From: Blastocatellia bacterium
Lineage (GTDB): Bacteria; Acidobacteriota; Blastocatellia; HR10
Assembly: GCA_035573895.1 (NCBI GenBank)
Contig: DATLZR010000091.1
Location: 1-38,681 of the forward strand
Reading direction: 5' to 3'
Length of the DNA stretch: 38,681 nt
Part shown: in pieces, positions 18,789-25,468 of the stretch
How the letters are laid out: the number at the start of each line of letters is the position of its first letter
How positions within the stretch are numbered: the first letter of the stretch is position 1
Notes under the pieces: generated by a model
Told to the model about the DNA's origin: nothing
Seen by the model: only the letters and a program-made list of their open reading frames with translations
Database searches by the model: none
Position numbers and translations under genes: made by a program

Positions 18789-19133
18789 TTAGAAAATGCC
18801 CAGCGTGAGGCGGGCTTCTTCGCTCATGCGGTCGGGCGACCAGGGCGGATCCCACACGACCTCGACCGTGGCATCGGTGACGCCTTCGACGGCTTTCACC
18901 CGGTCTTGAACTTCAAGCGGAAGCGAGATCGCCGTCGGGCATCCCGGTGCCGTCAGCGTCATCTTGATCGAGACGACGCCCGAGGGGCTCACCTCGATGT
19001 CATAGATCAATCCCAGGTCGTAGATGTTGACGGGAATTTCCGGATCATAGATCGTGCGGATCGTCTCGATGACCCGCTGCCGCAACTCCTGCTCATTGAC
19101 GGGGTGTTGCGTGGGAGGAGAAGGCGTTTCCAT
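18789..19133 (-). CDS. sufT: SufT-like MIP18/DUF59 Fe-S maturation factor
   Basis: 114 residues from the ATG at 19133, 8 nt after GGAG. A GTG at 19142 that overlaps the sufU stop would add three residues but has no ribosome site. The protein shows the DUF59/MIP18 pattern: RVIETIRTIYDPEIPVNIYDLGLIY, MTLTAPGCPTA with the single conserved Cys, and VVWDPPWSPDRMSEEAR at the end. Members act as auxiliary factors that help deliver or mature Fe-S clusters in SUF organisms. The last gene of the suf operon is a common position for sufT. No Cys-rich domain or fusion is present. Confidence 0.88.
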   Translation of the reverse strand: METPSPPTQHPVNEQELRQRVIETIRTIYDPEIPVNIYDLGLIYDIEVSPSGVVSIKMTLTAPGCPTAISLPLEVQDRVKAVEGVTDATVEVVWDPPWSPDRMSEEARLTLGIF

Positions 19134-19138
19134 ACGTC

Positions 19139-19591
19139 TCACTCCGTCGAGATTTCCTCCGTCTTATTTTCCAGAGCGGCTTTCAACGTGTGCCAGGGGA
19201 GGGAAGCGCACTTGACCCGGACGGGATATTTCTGCACTCCCGCGAAAATTTCCAGTTTCCCCAGGGGCGGGCCCGGTTCCGATGGCTGCAACTTCCCGGT
19301 GACGAGCCGATGGAACTTCTCAAACAGTGCTTCCACTTCGGCGCGCGTCTTCCCTTTGACGCTTTCGGTCATGAGCGACGCCGAGGCTTGAGAGACGGCG
19401 CACCCCTGACCCTGGAATCGAATATCGTGGATCATCTCCCCGTCAATCTCCAGGTAGACGACGATCTTGTCGCCGCACAGAGGATTATGACCCACGGCCT
19501 GACGATTGGCGTGTTCGAGCCGGCCAAAATTACGCGGTCGCTTGCTGTGATCCAGCAGGACCTCCTGGTAGAGATCGCGCAGATCGGTCAT
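19139..19591 (-). CDS. sufU: SufU zinc-dependent sulfurtransferase
   Basis: 150 residues. The ATG overlaps the sufS stop by 4 bp. It resembles IscU, but has the extra segment of about 18 residues (around 95-115) that distinguishes SufU, and [15 protein letters not shown] before the third Cys. Ligands are visible: Cys39 and Asp41 in NPLCGD, Cys64 in GQGCAVS, Cys128 in [10 protein letters not shown]. In Bacillus-type SUF systems SufU binds zinc and accepts persulfide sulfur from SufS for transfer to SufBCD, rather than acting as a scaffold. Its place directly after sufS fits that role. Confidence 0.95.
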
Positions 19592-20859
19592 GCTCCAAAA
19601 ACCTCTCTCACCTTCTCGAGCGCCCGAACGAGAGTATCCACCTCTTCCCTTGTGTTGTAAAGTGCCAGCGAGGCGCGCGCCGTGGCCGGAACGCCGAACC
19701 GCTCCATGAGCGGTTGAGCGCAGTGATGTCCCGCCCGAATGGCCACGCCCTCCTGATCGAGGATCGTGCCAATATCATGGGGATGAATTCCGTCGAGAAC
19801 GAAGGAGAGGATACTGGCCTTCTGGCGAGCGGTCCCGATGATCCGAAGGCCGGGCACACTGGAGACCGCTTCCGTCGCATAGGCCAGCAGGTCATGCTCA
19901 TAGCGAGCCACTGCGTCCAGGTCGAGGGAAGTCAAATAATCAATCGCCGCTCCCAGACCGATGGCTCCGGCGATGTGCGGCGTTCCCGCTTCAAATTTGT
20001 GGGGCACGCGATTGTAGGTCGTCTTCTCAAACGTGACCGAACTGATCATGTCCCCTCCGCCCTGGTAAGGGGGCATGGCTTCGAGTTTCTCCAGCTTACC
20101 GTACAAAACGCCGATGCCCGTCGGACCGTACATCTTGTGGCCGGAGAAGGTGTAAAAGTCGCAATCGAGCTGCTGCACGTCAACGCGCAGGTGCGGCACG
20201 GCTTGAGCCCCATCCACGAGCACCGGAATATTTCGCCGATGGGCGATCTGGACGATCTCCCGAATGGGATTGATTGTTCCCAGGGCATTGGAGATATGGG
20301 TCACCGCCACGAGCCGGGTCCTCTCGCTGAGCAACTTCTCATAGTCATCGAGCAAAAACTCGCCTTCATCCGAGATGGGGACGACCCTGAGGCGAGCGCC
20401 TTTCTCCTGACACAACATCTGCCAGGGGACGATATTGGAGTGGTGCTCCATCGTCGAGATGACGATCTCATCGCCGGCGCGGACCTGCTGGCGACCGTAG
20501 GTTTGTGCCACGAGATTGATGCCCTCGGTCGTCCCGCGAACGAAAATGATCTCGCGTTCGGAAGCGGCGTGAATAAACTGCTGGACCTTCCGGCGGGCTT
20601 GCTCGTAGGCTTCGGTGGCGCGCTCGCTCAGCGCATGCAGCCCCCGATGGATATTGGCGCAGTCCTCCTGATAGAAGCGCACGAGGGCGTCAATGACCGA
20701 ACGAGGTTTTTGACTCGTCGCCGCATTGTCGAGATAGACGAGCGGCTTGCCGTGAACCTTCTGGTGAAGGCTCGGGAAATCCTCCCGGATCCGCCAGACA
20801 TCGTAAGGACGCGATTCCACGGATGCGGCTGTGCCCGATTGAGAATTCCGAACAGCCAT
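19588..20859 (-). CDS. sufS: SufS group II cysteine desulfurase
   Basis: 423 residues. The ATG shares one base with the sufD stop (TGATG) and follows AGGAGG; a GTG one codon earlier is possible but less well placed. This PLP enzyme removes sulfur from cysteine and passes it to SufU. Seen: [11 protein letters not shown], the cofactor region [21 protein letters not shown], the PLP lysine Lys242 in [10 protein letters not shown], and the persulfide cysteine Cys380 in [10 protein letters not shown], set in the short rigid loop typical of group II (SufS) rather than the long loop of IscS. It is coupled with sufD upstream and sufU downstream. Confidence 0.96.
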
Positions 20860-22208
20860 CACACACCCTCCTTCTTCTGTCGGCTGTCAGGCCCGGAGGT
20901 CACCAGACGCGCCTCTAGCGTCCGGCGAATGGGTTCGATAGGAATGCGACCGAGGATGTCGCTGGCAAAGGCGTAGGTCAAAATCTGCCGGGCGGCATCC
21001 TCCTCGATCCCCCGCGTGCGAAGATAAAAGAGCGCATCCGCATCGAGTTGTCCGATGGCCGACCCGTGCGTGCACTTCACATCATCGGCATAAATCTCAA
21101 GCTGAGGATTGCTGTTGACCAGCGCTTCCTCGGACAGGAGGAGGTTCTTGTTGGTCTGCCGGGCATCGGTCTTCTGCGCTCCGGGGCGAACGATGATGCG
21201 CCCGTTGAAAACGCCGGTGGCTTGATCGTCCAGAATGCCCTTGTATATCTCGCGGCTCGTGCTGTGGGGTTTGACGTGCTCGATGAGCGTGTGATAGTCC
21301 ACATGCTGGCGACCGGTCGCCAGGTAGAATCCCTGAAGCGTGCACTCACTCCCCTCCCCATCCAGCACGACGGTGAGATCCGTGCGCGAGAGCGCCGCGC
21401 CGAGCGATACCTGAGAATCGGTGAAAGTGGCATCCCGCTCCTCACGAACCGCCAGGCTCGAGAGAAAGAATCCGGCGAGGCTCTCTCGCTGTATCTGATA
21501 GTGAGCGAGGCGGGCATTCGCCCCCAGAATGATTTCCGTAACAGCATTGGTGAAGGATACCGCTCCCGGCTCGCCGCAGTAGGTTTCGACGATCGTTGCC
21601 TGACTCTGCGCCTGGGCGACAATCAGGGTGCGCGGATGGGCAACCGACGGATGCTCGCGGGCCGTTGAAAGGAACAGCAGGTGAATCGGTTCATCCACGA
21701 CCGCCCCCTTCGGCAGATAGACAAAGGCTCCATCCGCCAGGAAAGCGGTGTTCAAAGCGACGAAAGGATGGGTCTCATCCGTGGCGACGCGGGCAAGAAA
21801 AGGTTCTACCTGTTGCGGCGATGTCTCGAGGACGTCGGCTAACCCACAAACCACCACGCCCGGCGGAAGTCCGTCGAGCGAGGACAGCGCGGGCGAAAAC
21901 CATCCGTTGACGAAGACCATCGTCGGACAGGGCCACTCTCCAAAGGGCTGCCGCAGCGATGCGGGAATTTGCTTCTCGTCAGCCGATGCCGGTTCGACCG
22001 GCACAAAGGGAACGGCCACAAGCGGCGCCAGATTGGTAAATCGCCACTCCTCCTGGCGCGTGGTGGGAAATCCGAGATCGGCAAATCGTGCGATCGCCGC
22101 TCGACGGAGAGATCGAAGCCATTCACCATCGCGCCGCCCCGCCTCGAACCGGGCGAACTGATTCAGATACGCCTCGCACTCGCGACTCACGGGAACTGTC
22201 ACCGGCAT
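20859..22208 (-). CDS. sufD: SufD, Fe-S assembly scaffold subunit
   Basis: 449 residues from the ATG at 22208 ([15 protein letters not shown]), which has AGGAGAG upstream. The open frame extends 51 codons further into sufC, but that extension is antifunctional overlap and is rejected. SufD pairs with SufB and SufC to build clusters. Features: the N-terminal [18 protein letters not shown], a beta-helix core, and the C-terminal [19 protein letters not shown] with the conserved Cys and His, then [18 protein letters not shown]. It sits 10 bp after sufC. Confidence 0.95.
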
Positions 22209-22218
22209 ACGCTCTCTC

Positions 22219-23001
22219 CTATTCTCTGAGCGAAGAGACGGCAGCCGCCTCTTCTTCCACCCAGCCGTAGCCTTTCTCCTCCAGCTCCAGCGCGAGGTCC
22301 CGGCCTCCAGACCTGACAATGCGACCGCCCGACAGCACGTGAACGACATCGGGCACGACATAGTTGAGCAGGCGCTGATAGTGCGTGATGACGATCATGG
22401 CCCGCTCCGGGTGACGCAGCGTATTGATCCCCCGGGCGACGATCTTCAAAGCATCAATGTCCAGACCCGAGTCGGTCTCATCGAGAATCGCCAGGCGCGG
22501 ATCCAACACGGCCATCTGAAAGATCTCGTTCCGCTTCTTCTCGCCTCCGGAGAATCCCTCGTTGACCGAGCGGTGGAGGAAACTCTCCTCCATCTCCACG
22601 AGCTTGAGTTTTTCCCGCACCAGGGAGAGGAACTCCAGGGCATCGAGTTCGGGAAGACCCCGATGCTTCCGAATGGCGTTGACGGCCGCCTTGAGAAAAT
22701 AGACATTGCTCACGCCGGGGATCTCAATCGGATATTGAAAGGCCAGAAAGAGACCTTCCCGCGCGCGCTCCTCCGGCGACATCGCCAGAAGGTCTTTCCC
22801 CCGATAGAGAACCTCGCCCCGGGTGACGAGATAGGTTTCTCGCCCGGCCAGGACATGAGCCAGTGTGCTTTTGCCCGAGCCGTTGGGTCCCATGATGGCA
22901 TGAACTTCTCCCGCGCGGACGATCAAATCAATGCCGCGCAGAATCTCCTTCCCCTCCACGCTCACATGAAGGTTCCGGATTTCCAGCATCACCTCTGTCA
23001 C
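22219..23001 (-). CDS. sufC: SufC, ABC-type ATPase of the SufBCD complex
   Basis: 260 residues with a GTG start 7 nt after GAGGAGG. Walker A is GPNGSGKST (38-46), the signature FSGGEKKR, Walker B LAILDETDSGLD, and the switch His is in VITHYQR. GGEKKRNEI and ETDSGLDIDAL are SufC hallmarks that separate it from transport ATPases. SufC dimerises on SufB and SufD and drives the rearrangement that allows cluster assembly; it is cytosolic. The gap of 73 bp to sufB contains no separate promoter that I recognise. Confidence 0.96.
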   Translation of the reverse strand: MTEVMLEIRNLHVSVEGKEILRGIDLIVRAGEVHAIMGPNGSGKSTLAHVLAGRETYLVTRGEVLYRGKDLLAMSPEERAREGLFLAFQYPIEIPGVSNVYFLKAAVNAIRKHRGLPELDALEFLSLVREKLKLVEMEESFLHRSVNEGFSGGEKKRNEIFQMAVLDPRLAILDETDSGLDIDALKIVARGINTLRHPERAMIVITHYQRLLNYVVPDVVHVLSGGRIVRSGGRDLALELEEKGYGWVEEEAAAVSSLRE

Positions 23002-23074: not shown

Positions 23075-24526
23075 TCATCCGACGCTTCCTTCCAGACTCA
23101 CGGCCAGCAGCTTCTGGGCTTCGACGGCAAACTCCATCGGCAGCTCGCGCAAGACCTGACGGCAGAATCCGTTGACGATCATCGAGACGGCATCCTCCGT
23201 CGTCAGGCCCCGTTGCCGACAGTAGAAAAGTTGATCCTCGCCGATCTTCGACGTCGAGGCCTCGTGCTCAATCTGCGCCGTGCTGTTATGAACTTCCAGA
23301 TAGGGGAACGTATGCGCCCCGCACTTATCGCCGAGCAGCAACGAATCGCACTGAGAGTAATTGCGGGCGTTGGTCGCCCCTTTCATGATCTTGACCATGC
23401 CCCGATACGTGTTCTGCCCGTGACCGGCTGAAATGCCCTTGGAGATGATCGTGCTGCGCGTGTTCTTGCCGATGTGAATCATCTTCGTTCCCGTATCGGC
23501 CTGCTGATAGTTGTTAGTGATGGCCACGGAGTAGAACTCGCCCACGGAGTAATCGCCAAGCAGGATGCAGCTCGGATATTTCCAGGTGATGGCCGATCCG
23601 GCTTCCACCTGCGTCCAGGAGATCTTGGAGTGAACGCCCTGGCACTTCCCCCGCTTGGTGACGAAATTGTAGATGCCGCCCCGCCCCTCCTTATCTCCCG
23701 GATACCAGTTCTGAATCGTCGAGTACTTGATCTCGGCATGGTCCAGAGCGATGAGTTCGACGACGGCCGCGTGCAGTTGATTCTCATCGCGCATCGGCGC
23801 CGTACAGCCCTCAAGATAGCTCACATACGATCCCTCATCAGCGATGATGAGCGTGCGCTCGAACTGACCTGTCTCCGAGGCATTGATGCGGAAATAGGTC
23901 GAGAGTTCCATCGGACAGCGCACTCCCTTGGGCACGTAAACGAACGAGCCATCGCTGAAAACAGCCGAATTGAGCGCCGCGAAGAAATTATCCGTGTAGG
24001 GGACCACCGACCCCAAATACTGCTGAACCAGCTCCGGGTGCTCCTGCACCGCTTCGGAAAAAGAGCAGAAAATGATTCCTAACGCCGCCAGCTTCTCGCG
24101 GAAGGTCGTCGCCACCGACACGCTGTCAAAAACGGCATCCACCGCAACACCGGCCAGTCGCTCTTGCTCATGAAGGGGAATTCCCAGCTTCTCATAGGTG
24201 GCGCGAATCTCAGGATCAATCTCGTCTAAACTGCGAGGCCGTCGCTTGGGCGCGGCATAATACCGAATCGCTTGATAGTCAATCGGTGGATAAGTGACTT
24301 TAGCCCATCGAGGCTCCCCCTTCGTCTCCAGTAACTGCTTCCAGTAGCGATAGGCCTTCAACCGCCACTCCAGCAACCACTGAGGCTCATTCTTCTTGGC
24401 CGAAATCATACGGATAATGTCTTCATTGAGCCCCGGGGGGAAGACCTCTTGCTCAACGGGTGTGACAAATCCGTACCGGTACTCCCTATTGACAAGTTCC
24501 GTGATGACGTCCGGTGATGTTGCCAT
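23075..24526 (-). CDS. sufB: SufB, Fe-S assembly scaffold protein
   Basis: 483 residues, typical length; ATG with AAGGGAG close upstream. SufB is the main scaffold on which clusters form from SufU/SufS sulfur. Conserved blocks are [28 protein letters not shown], the assembly-site Cys in [16 protein letters not shown], and [20 protein letters not shown]. It is the first structural gene of the operon, 70 bp after the rrf2 stop. A candidate Rrf2-type operator (24550-24573) lies in that gap. Confidence 0.97.
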
Positions 24527-24549
24527 ATCTCCCTTCCCTGATCTCCGCT

Positions 24550-24573
24550 AAACCTGACAAAGAAGTCATATTT
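24550..24573. promoter_or_regulatory. candidate Rrf2-type operator upstream of sufB
   Basis: On the plus strand AAACCTGACA-N4-AGTCATATTT has the same layout as the site in the rrf2 promoter, ATACCTGACT-N4-TGTCAACTTT. Both resemble half-sites of the type 1 IscR box (ATASYYGACT..AGTCRRSTAT) with a spacer one base shorter. It is 24-47 nt before the sufB start. No convincing -10/-35 was found here. Confidence 0.5.
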
Positions 24574-24596
24574 GAAACCAAAAAAACGACCCTCGC

Positions 24597-25064
24597 TCAG
24601 ACGGACATGAACTGAGCCCGTCCTTTCTTCATGAGACTCATCTCTACCTCCTGCTCATCCCGAAGCAGATGGGAAAGAGGAATCTGATCGAGCAAGCTCT
24701 GGATATAAAACGCCACCCGCCACAGCGGGCGCAAACCACAATTATTGACATGCACGCAACAGTCGAGATTACCGGTGTATTGATTGCAGATGTCGGTGTC
24801 GGAGGTCAGCCCTCCAAGGGCGCGCAGGACTTCGCCAAGCGAAATCGTCTCGGCGGGCCGGCTCAAACAGTATCCACCGTTGATCCCTCGAACGCTGCGC
24901 GTGATCCCCGCTCGACTGAGCATGTGCAGGAGCTTTTCGACATACGCGACCGACAGCGCTTCGCGCCGGGCAATTTCCTTCACCGACAGTGGAGTTCCTT
25001 CAGGCTGCAAGGCCAGTTGCAGCAAGCAGCGCAGGCCATATTCTTCTTGCGCGGTGATTCTCAC
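24597..25064 (-). CDS. Rrf2-family Fe-S-sensing transcriptional regulator
   Basis: 155 residues from the GTG at 25064. An ATG-type frame from 25139 would span the promoter and is rejected. Residues 1-85 form the winged helix-turn-helix (RITAQEEYGLRCLLQLA, SVKEIARREALSVAYVEKLLHML, RSVRGINGGYCLSRP). Cys93, Cys102, Cys103 and Cys109 lie where IscR has its three cluster ligands, with spacing C-x8-CC-x5-C instead of C-x5-C-x5-C. Placed first in the suf operon, it should sense cluster supply and control suf expression, as IscR, RirA or SufR-like Rrf2 proteins do. Its promoter contains a candidate self-operator. The predicted transcript starts at or next to the GTG, so translation is probably leaderless. 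Confidence 0.9.
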   Translation of the reverse strand: MRITAQEEYGLRCLLQLALQPEGTPLSVKEIARREALSVAYVEKLLHMLSRAGITRSVRGINGGYCLSRPAETISLGEVLRALGGLTSDTDICNQYTGNLDCCVHVNNCGLRPLWRVAFYIQSLLDQIPLSHLLRDEQEVEMSLMKKGRAQFMSV

Positions 25065-25071
25065 AACGGCC

Positions 25072-25100
25072 AGTTTAGCAATACCTGACTCTTTTGTCAA
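25072..25100 (-). promoter_or_regulatory. promoter of the rrf2-suf operon, implying a leaderless mRNA
   Basis: On the minus strand a consensus TTGACA (25095-25100) and TAAACT (25072-25077) are 17 bases apart. Only 7 bases (GGCCGTT) separate the -10 from the GTG start codon at 25064. Transcription normally starts about 7 nt after the -10, so the start codon would be at or within a base of the 5' end. No Shine-Dalgarno sequence precedes the GTG. Confidence 0.7.
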
Positions 25101-25104
25101 CTTT
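25081..25104. promoter_or_regulatory. candidate Rrf2 self-operator overlapping the -35 and spacer
   Basis: ATACCTGACT (25081-25090) matches the IscR type 1 half-site ATASYYGACT exactly. After four bases, TGTCAACTTT matches the second half-site at 8 of 10 positions. Bound protein would cover the -35 and block the operon. The sister site is at 24550-24573. Confidence 0.55.
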
Positions 25105-25391
25105 TGAGGATGACAACTCCACCGGCATGCTCGTGACAATCAGATAAGCTCCCCCCGTGAGGAAAACCTGCGACTCAGGTGAACAAGCGTCGCATTTCCG
25201 GCGCGATACGTGCCCCAAGAGGTCGCTGGTGGCAACAAGGTGAAAAACAACAGGCGTTGCACTTCCGACCCCCTTGGAGGCATCCATTACACGAGGTCGG
25301 GAGGGATGGGAGATGGTTCACGGTGCAGGCAGGGGAAGTGCCTGACCATTATGTTTTAGCCCGCGCGACCGGATCGAAAATAAGAGAATCC

Positions 25392-25468
25392 TGGCGCGCC
25401 CGAGAGGACTCGAACCTCCAACCCTTGGATCCGAAGTCCAATGCTCTGTCCTGTTGAGCTACGGGCGC
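25392..25468 (-). tRNA. tRNA-Arg, anticodon TCG, with encoded CCA
   Basis: The 77-nt minus-strand sequence folds as a full cloverleaf. The acceptor stem is GCGCCCG/CGGGCGC with discriminator G and genomic CCA. The D arm is GCTC..GAGC, the anticodon stem TTGGA/TCCAA around loop CTTCGGA (anticodon TCG, reading CGA), the variable loop GGGTT, and the T arm GGAGG-TTCGAGT-CCTCT. It lies between the suf operon promoter and a repeat-rich gap. The 25140-25391 stretch downstream holds no gene that I can support. Confidence 0.96.

Follow-up and report, generated by a model that had tools for sequence, protein, structure and literature searches.

The rrf2-suf locus and its two dyads

The window, by which we mean the whole stretch of 38,681 nucleotides analysed, is one entire contig of a 3.9-Mb genome (184 contigs, 97% complete) that, among named relatives, is closest to Blastocatellia and other Acidobacteriota MAGs. 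Its minus strand carries a gene for a RisR-like regulator of the Rrf2 family, here called rrf2, which heads a run of sufB, sufC, sufD, sufS and genes resembling sufU and sufT (Table 1). The GTG at 25064-25062 is most likely the start of rrf2, and sufD probably begins further downstream than its listed start, because the listed open reading frame overlaps sufC. An Rfam search at the locus retrieved nothing besides the tRNA gene found upstream of rrf2.

Table 1. Features of the rrf2-suf locus, in window coordinates
Feature	Coordinates	Strand	Remarks
tRNA-Arg	25392..25468	-	anticodon tcg
operator P	25081..25104	-	minus strand reads AAAGTTGACAAAAGAGTCAGGTAT (TGAC-N6-GTCA dyad); match of the held-out model; counterpart in 10/10 genomes of the order
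-35 hexamer of the rrf2 promoter	25095..25100	-	TTGACA; inside the left arm of P
-10 hexamer of the rrf2 promoter	25072..25077	-	TAAACT, with TG before it; 17 bp from the -35; A and ACT kept in the order consensus
rrf2 (RisR-like Rrf2 regulator)	24597..25064	-	GTG start, 155 aa; Cys 93, 102, 103 and 109 in the cluster region
A/T tract	24580..24586	-	T7 on the coding strand; 12 bp from its end to the GAC of B downstream
operator B	24550..24573	-	minus strand reads AAATATGACTTCTTTGTCAGGTTT; match of the held-out model; intact dyad at the same junction in 7/9 loci of family f8
sufB	23075..24526	-	NF008773, TIGR01980
sufC	22219..23001	-	TIGR01978
sufD	20859..22361	-	TIGR01981; open reading frame as listed
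sufS (cysteine desulfurase)	19588..20862	-	TIGR01979
sufU-like	19139..19591	-	NifU_N
sufT-like	18789..19142	-	FeS_assembly_P, PF01883

Two imperfect dyads flank the regulator gene. An earlier, sequence-only reading of this DNA had picked out both, P as ATACCTGACT-CTTT-TGTCAACTTT and B as AAACCTGACA-AAGA-AGTCATATTT, and the letters and positions it gave proved correct; read from those letters, 6/10 arm positions are complementary in P and 7/10 in B. Its description of an identical 4-bp gap holds for the length and fails for the sequence (CTTT versus AAGA), while the likeness it saw to an IscR type 1 box with a spacer one base shorter is borne out by the N6 spacing found here against N7 in that box. 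B was rightly placed before sufB, in the interval between rrf2 and that gene. P had been said to overlap the rrf2 promoter at its -35 and spacer, and a promoter of the form TTGACA-17-TAAACT was indeed found there. With 10/12 matches it is the sole promoter-like match on either strand of the region 24400-25300 (0.3 expected in shuffles), and P covers its -35 and most of its spacer. As 7 bp separate the -10 from the GTG, the rrf2 transcript would be nearly leaderless.

Across the 10 genomes of the order the consensus at P reads AaacTTGACAAa..AGTCAggTt.tG.cA.ACT, and the 44 alignment columns before it hold no conserved letter. The TTGAC in P is also simply a -35, so the right arm alone constitutes independent evidence of an operator; its AGTCA is located in the spacer, which would not require these letters if it served a promoter only.

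The protein encoded between the two sites is the one Rrf2 protein found in the genome. It passed the models of the Rrf2 superfamily (PF02082, 105.8 bits against a cut-off of 30; TIGR00738, 100.2 against 73.3) and fell below the cut-offs of the more specific ones, namely the IscR equivalog model TIGR02010 (73.2 bits, cut-off 207.55) and those for NsrR (60.2/182), RirA (57.6/193), CymR (73.5/195) and the Xanthomonas-type SUF regulator (69.9/110.65). It has cysteines at positions 13, 66, 93, 102, 103 and 109, among which 93, 103 and 109 are spaced +10/+6. These three very probably hold an Fe-S cluster.

Specificity and conservation of the putative operator P

In order to see how far the dyads stand out from chance, we counted the pattern ACCTGAC-N6-GTCA, itself derived from both sites. 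It occurs exactly twice in the 3.9-Mb genome, at P and at B. Allowing up to one mismatch gave 35 occurrences genome-wide compared with 39 in a backwards control, and with two mismatches the window holds 10 compared with 7.66 expected. Because these counts are at control or ordinary level, the pattern count alone is weak, and a held-out sequence model was therefore built. The model spans 24 bp and was trained on 12 sites from other genomes, taken from 36 site rows, together with their reverse complements; purposely kept out of the training were the window sites, the eroded B sites of the order and an f8 site with the same sequence as P, and the other rows were left out as repeats or for brevity. 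A genome scan with a site model had been proposed as a check by the sequence-only reading and was run in this held-out form. On both strands of the window's own genome, and among the 150 of 490 first-look candidates that were scored, P and B alone appeared at E<=10 (E 0.08-0.10), with no further match that would point to a wider regulon.

Within the order the model matched P in 10/10 genomes, and P was the top match in each of the nine others. The further matches at E<=5 came from two genomes, on contigs G008:C83 (L154, L156) and G009:C19 (L155), where dyads reading GACAATTTTGTC or GACAAATTTGTC lie beside a gene that by eye resembles a sigma-54 activator (GAF-AAA); these are possibly the sites of another regulator. 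The held-out model and the conservation of the sites in relatives are stronger evidence than the pattern count.

Conservation was assessed in 110 loci (L031-L140), and further searches yielded none beyond this set. We grouped 89 of them, 70 in which rrf2 heads suf and 19 in which it does not; the 21 omitted were L057, four further Bacteroidota/Pedobacter loci (L123, L133, L134 and L139) and 16 loci that duplicate named contigs. Group labels were partly assigned in this analysis: L094 is the single one of the five Armatimonadota-like loci with such a title, the delta/other group comprises L081, L087, L093 and L102, and the suf-heading groups include L084, L092 and L136, which had no sufB match in the stretch examined. 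In 54/70 suf-heading loci, from several phyla, TTGA[CA]-N6-GT[CA] lies upstream of rrf2 and in register with a -10, a count in which related genomes are taken as separate. By group, it was present in 10/10 loci of the order, 19/19 Omnitrophota, 12/14 other Acidobacteriota, 4/5 Armatimonadota-like loci, 4/5 Planctomycetes, 3/4 Melainabacteria (all with TTGAA), 2/4 delta/other and 0/9 f8; dinucleotide shuffles gave an expectation of 0.00-0.04 loci per group. The pattern was found in 0/19 loci in which rrf2 does not head suf, a mild control, because rrf2 there sits behind suf genes and no promoter is expected right before it.

The f8 loci carry the dyad in a different register: GAC-N6-GTC lies upstream of rrf2 in 8/9 (0.21 expected), the right arm reads TTGTCA in 6/8 of these, and a -10 with 4/6 matches follows 17 bp on in 4/6 of that subset. 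As to spacing, TGAC-N6-GTCA is found within 150 bp upstream of rrf2 in 31/70 loci and each of the other spacings from 4 to 9 in at most one. An intact GAC-N6-GTC precedes rrf2 in 10/10 loci of the order, 8/9 f8, 19/19 Omnitrophota and 2/4 delta/other, and in 1/14 other Acidobacteriota, 0/5 Armatimonadota-like loci, 0/5 Planctomycetes and 0/4 Melainabacteria; outside the order, f8 and Omnitrophota the right arm is mostly GTA. A glutamate of the recognition helix (YVEK) was considered, by eye, as a correlate of GTC versus GTA and was rejected on counter-examples among the Armatimonadota-like loci and in L071/L078 and L059. Two Omnitrophota loci, L085 and L086, have two tandem dyads of the GAC-N6-GTC type before rrf2, 24 and 25 bp apart, a layout like that of the two IscR sites at the isc promoter of Pseudomonas aeruginosa.

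That P accompanies rrf2 genes heading suf also bears on which protein would bind there. The dyads might be IscR-family sites to which not the window's Rrf2 but some other protein binds; nothing was found in favour of this, and with a single Rrf2 protein in the genome, encoded between the two sites, we consider it extremely improbable.

The putative operator B and the A/T tract before it

Among the nearest relatives B is far less conserved than P. The window's genome is the one among ten in the order with an intact GAC-N6-GTC after rrf2; the right arm is eroded, with GTG or GTT for GTC, in eight of the nine others and the site is absent from the ninth (L067), and at E<=5 the held-out model reported B in none of these nine. 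In the eight eroded copies (L061, L066, L062-L065, L037 and L039) the site reads ATGACTTTTTAG, a sequence not seen in the window that might form an open frame of three codons and a stop. Outside the order, an intact dyad lies between rrf2 and the next suf gene in 7/9 f8 loci (0.07 expected) and at the rrf2-sufC junction in 10/19 Omnitrophota (0.27 expected, both in mononucleotide shuffles), the other nine Omnitrophota being without it, and after rrf2 in 0/14 loci of other Acidobacteriota. The lack of an intact site in the nine order genomes and in these 14 loci would suit a reading in which P is the only real operator and B either a weak leftover or a dyad that arose by chance in an AT-rich intergenic stretch. 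We consider this unlikely, given that the exact dyad recurs at the same junction in f8 and Omnitrophota far above shuffles and that even the eroded copies of the order still lie 12 bp from an A/T tract. The second control point that the sequence-only reading saw at B is supported by the intact sites of the window, f8 and Omnitrophota, and weakened by erosion or loss in the nine order relatives.

The Omnitrophota junction dyad often falls on the start of sufC (ATG or GTG, ACN AAA GAG TCN), so that protein sequence could explain part of its conservation. The core dyad is, however, kept in L074, L088 and L092 though the codon there is no longer ATG or GTG, which favours a role of the DNA.

We also analyzed the surroundings of B in 19 B-type loci, nine from the order, seven from f8, the Acidobacteriaceae L071 and L078 and the Omnitrophota L096. 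L078 belongs to Edaphobacter aggregans, a relative in culture whose own sites are variants. These were chosen for a dyad-like site near a tract and are no random sample, although the spacing was no part of the choice. The distance from the end of the A/T tract to the GAC downstream is 12 bp in 18/19 of them and 11 bp in L068; when any A/T run is counted rather than A-then-T tracts, L046 also gives 11. Both flanking distances vary: the tract follows the rrf2 stop at 1 to 20, and the estimated sufB start follows the GAC at 24 to 58 in 16 loci and at 96 and 418 in two others. The centres of tract and dyad are about 21.5 bp apart, near two helical turns. Speaking against a general rule, a tract is missing at 8/10 Omnitrophota junction dyads (in a scan that did not list L074), and the junction dyads of three Melainabacteria have tracts at distances other than 12 bp. 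At P sites a tract at 12 bp was found in 0/21 inspected, and some f8 P sites have one at 21-32. The composite pattern T5-N11-TGAC-N6-GTCA occurs once in the window's own genome and in 52/396 genomes of the phylum; its matches in the window genome, G014 and G022 are known suf junctions.

The constant spacing between tract and dyad amid variable flanks would fit an internal sufB promoter of which the tract is a part and B the operator, much as IscR acts at P3 of Rhodobacter (PMC6956336), and in three Melainabacteria the rrf2-sufC dyad does overlap a TATAAT. No sigma-70 promoter was detected at B, however, the 18 aligned loci show no -10 consensus, and the estimated sufB start of L070 lies 24 bp after the GAC, which together make an internal promoter rather unlikely in our judgement. 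On inspection of the alignment by hand, no -10 fits an internal sigma-70 promoter, an antisense promoter or a UP element with a -35 at B, and all three were rejected. The Melainabacteria concerned (L110, L118 and L140) carry a TTGA-N8-TCAA dyad whose end overlaps the TATAAT, an arrangement that looks like an internal promoter with its operator.

An attenuator, with an intrinsic terminator after rrf2 and the dyad downstream of it, was suggested by the T7 tracts after rrf2 and by short stems that by eye abut the tract in one genus. We consider it very unlikely, and a terminator after rrf2 was rejected, as there is no terminator-like match at the window tract, the fold z is -0.99 and no consistent stem was seen in the 19 loci. 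The tract is moreover not a U-run throughout, because it is either T6-8 or A-then-T, and f8 has A-rich forms such as AAAAAATTT. Three overlapping terminator-like matches were found inside rrf2 itself, at 24711-24731 on the minus strand (1.0 expected in region shuffles). Looping between P and B was likewise rejected, because the distances, 531-545 bp within the order and 559-657 bp among f8 loci, share no helical phase.

Tentatively, then, B may be one half of a composite element, in which an A/T tract 12 bp from an N6 Rrf2 dyad shapes or extends binding and switches transcription from rrf2 into suf, a second tier of control beyond repression at the promoter; we hold this to be a possibility, and no stronger than that. 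Such an element before sufB makes one ask how a regulator at the head of an operon comes to be controlled apart from the genes behind it.

Proposed control of the operon and comparison with known systems

Taken together, the locus is likely to be an autoregulated rrf2-sufBCDSUT operon in which cluster-loaded Rrf2 represses at P and has a second effect at B. Loaded Rrf2 would bind the TGAC-N6-GTCA dyads as a dimer and, at P, cover the -35 element and spacer and thereby exclude RNA polymerase; with polymerase shut out, an ample supply of clusters would keep the operon repressed and a shortage would release it. Self-repression at P, as the sequence-only reading had proposed, is supported by the conservation of the site, the lack of other model matches and the single Rrf2 found. 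The same protein may also bind B. This second control point, probably a weaker one, would adjust suf expression relative to that of rrf2, most likely as an obstacle to elongation or through an unrecognised internal start such as P3 of Rhodobacter (PMC6956336).

The closest known system is RisR of Myxococcus xanthus, which also heads sufBCDSUT, has C92, C102 and C108 as proposed ligands and, in its holo form, represses isc and suf, protecting about 30 bp around a core GAC-N7-GTC (PMC9973013). Membership of the RisR/IS6 group would call for a [4Fe-4S]-type cluster and repression by the holo form; the group includes Acidobacteria and Chthonomonas calidirosea, and according to the same source no Rrf2 regulator of this group had been investigated before RisR (PMC9973013). 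The window system shares with RisR a regulator heading sufBCDSUT, cysteines spaced +10/+6 and an imperfect GAC...GTC dyad on the promoter hexamers. It differs in that the dyad of the window and its relatives is GAC-N6-GTC rather than GAC-N7-GTC, that RisR also controls an isc operon and that the accessible text of PMC9973013 describes no second site before sufB comparable with B.

In Escherichia coli, IscR binds a type 1 site, ATASYYGACTRWWWYAGTCRRSTAT, with GAC-N7-GTC in a 25-bp consensus, and ligates its cluster through cysteines 92, 98 and 104 and His107 (PMC6599224). It resembles the window system as an Rrf2-family protein with a GAC...GTC dyad and AT-rich flanks at the promoter of its own operon. 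In contrast to the N7 dyad and the +6/+6 cysteines with His107 of IscR, the window has an N6 dyad, +10/+6 cysteines and an Arg three residues after the third Cys. By cysteine spacing and gene order the window Rrf2 appears closer to RisR than to IscR, and since the IscR type 1 and RisR sites are both N7, the N6 spacing is a departure.

Sites repeated within one operon also have precedents. In the isc-suf operon of Rhodobacter sphaeroides IscR acts at P1, P2 and the internal promoter P3 (PMC6956336), so that one regulator has several sites in its own operon, one of them internal, as proposed here; the internal promoter has been shown in R. sphaeroides, whereas none is recognisable in the window. 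Two type 1 sites for one Rrf2 regulator are likewise found at the isc promoter of P. aeruginosa (PMC6599224), though side by side at one promoter and not, as here, 531 bp apart and flanking rrf2.

If the protein belongs to the IS6 group, the N6 dyad fused to a -35 becomes a testable SUF operator for Acidobacteriota and Omnitrophota, to which half-eroded forms found in other phyla are related. It would show a change of spacing relative to both IscR and RisR and be a concrete candidate switch for poorly studied bacteria. In the literature retrieved on N6 dyads and on Rrf2/IscR with suf in Acidobacteria, which mostly did not cover subscription papers, no title or beginning of an abstract describes an N6 dyad. 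Set beside RisR, IscR and the multi-site operons, the locus is distinguished by the putative N6 operator of its RisR-like SUF regulator and by the tract-dyad element before sufB.
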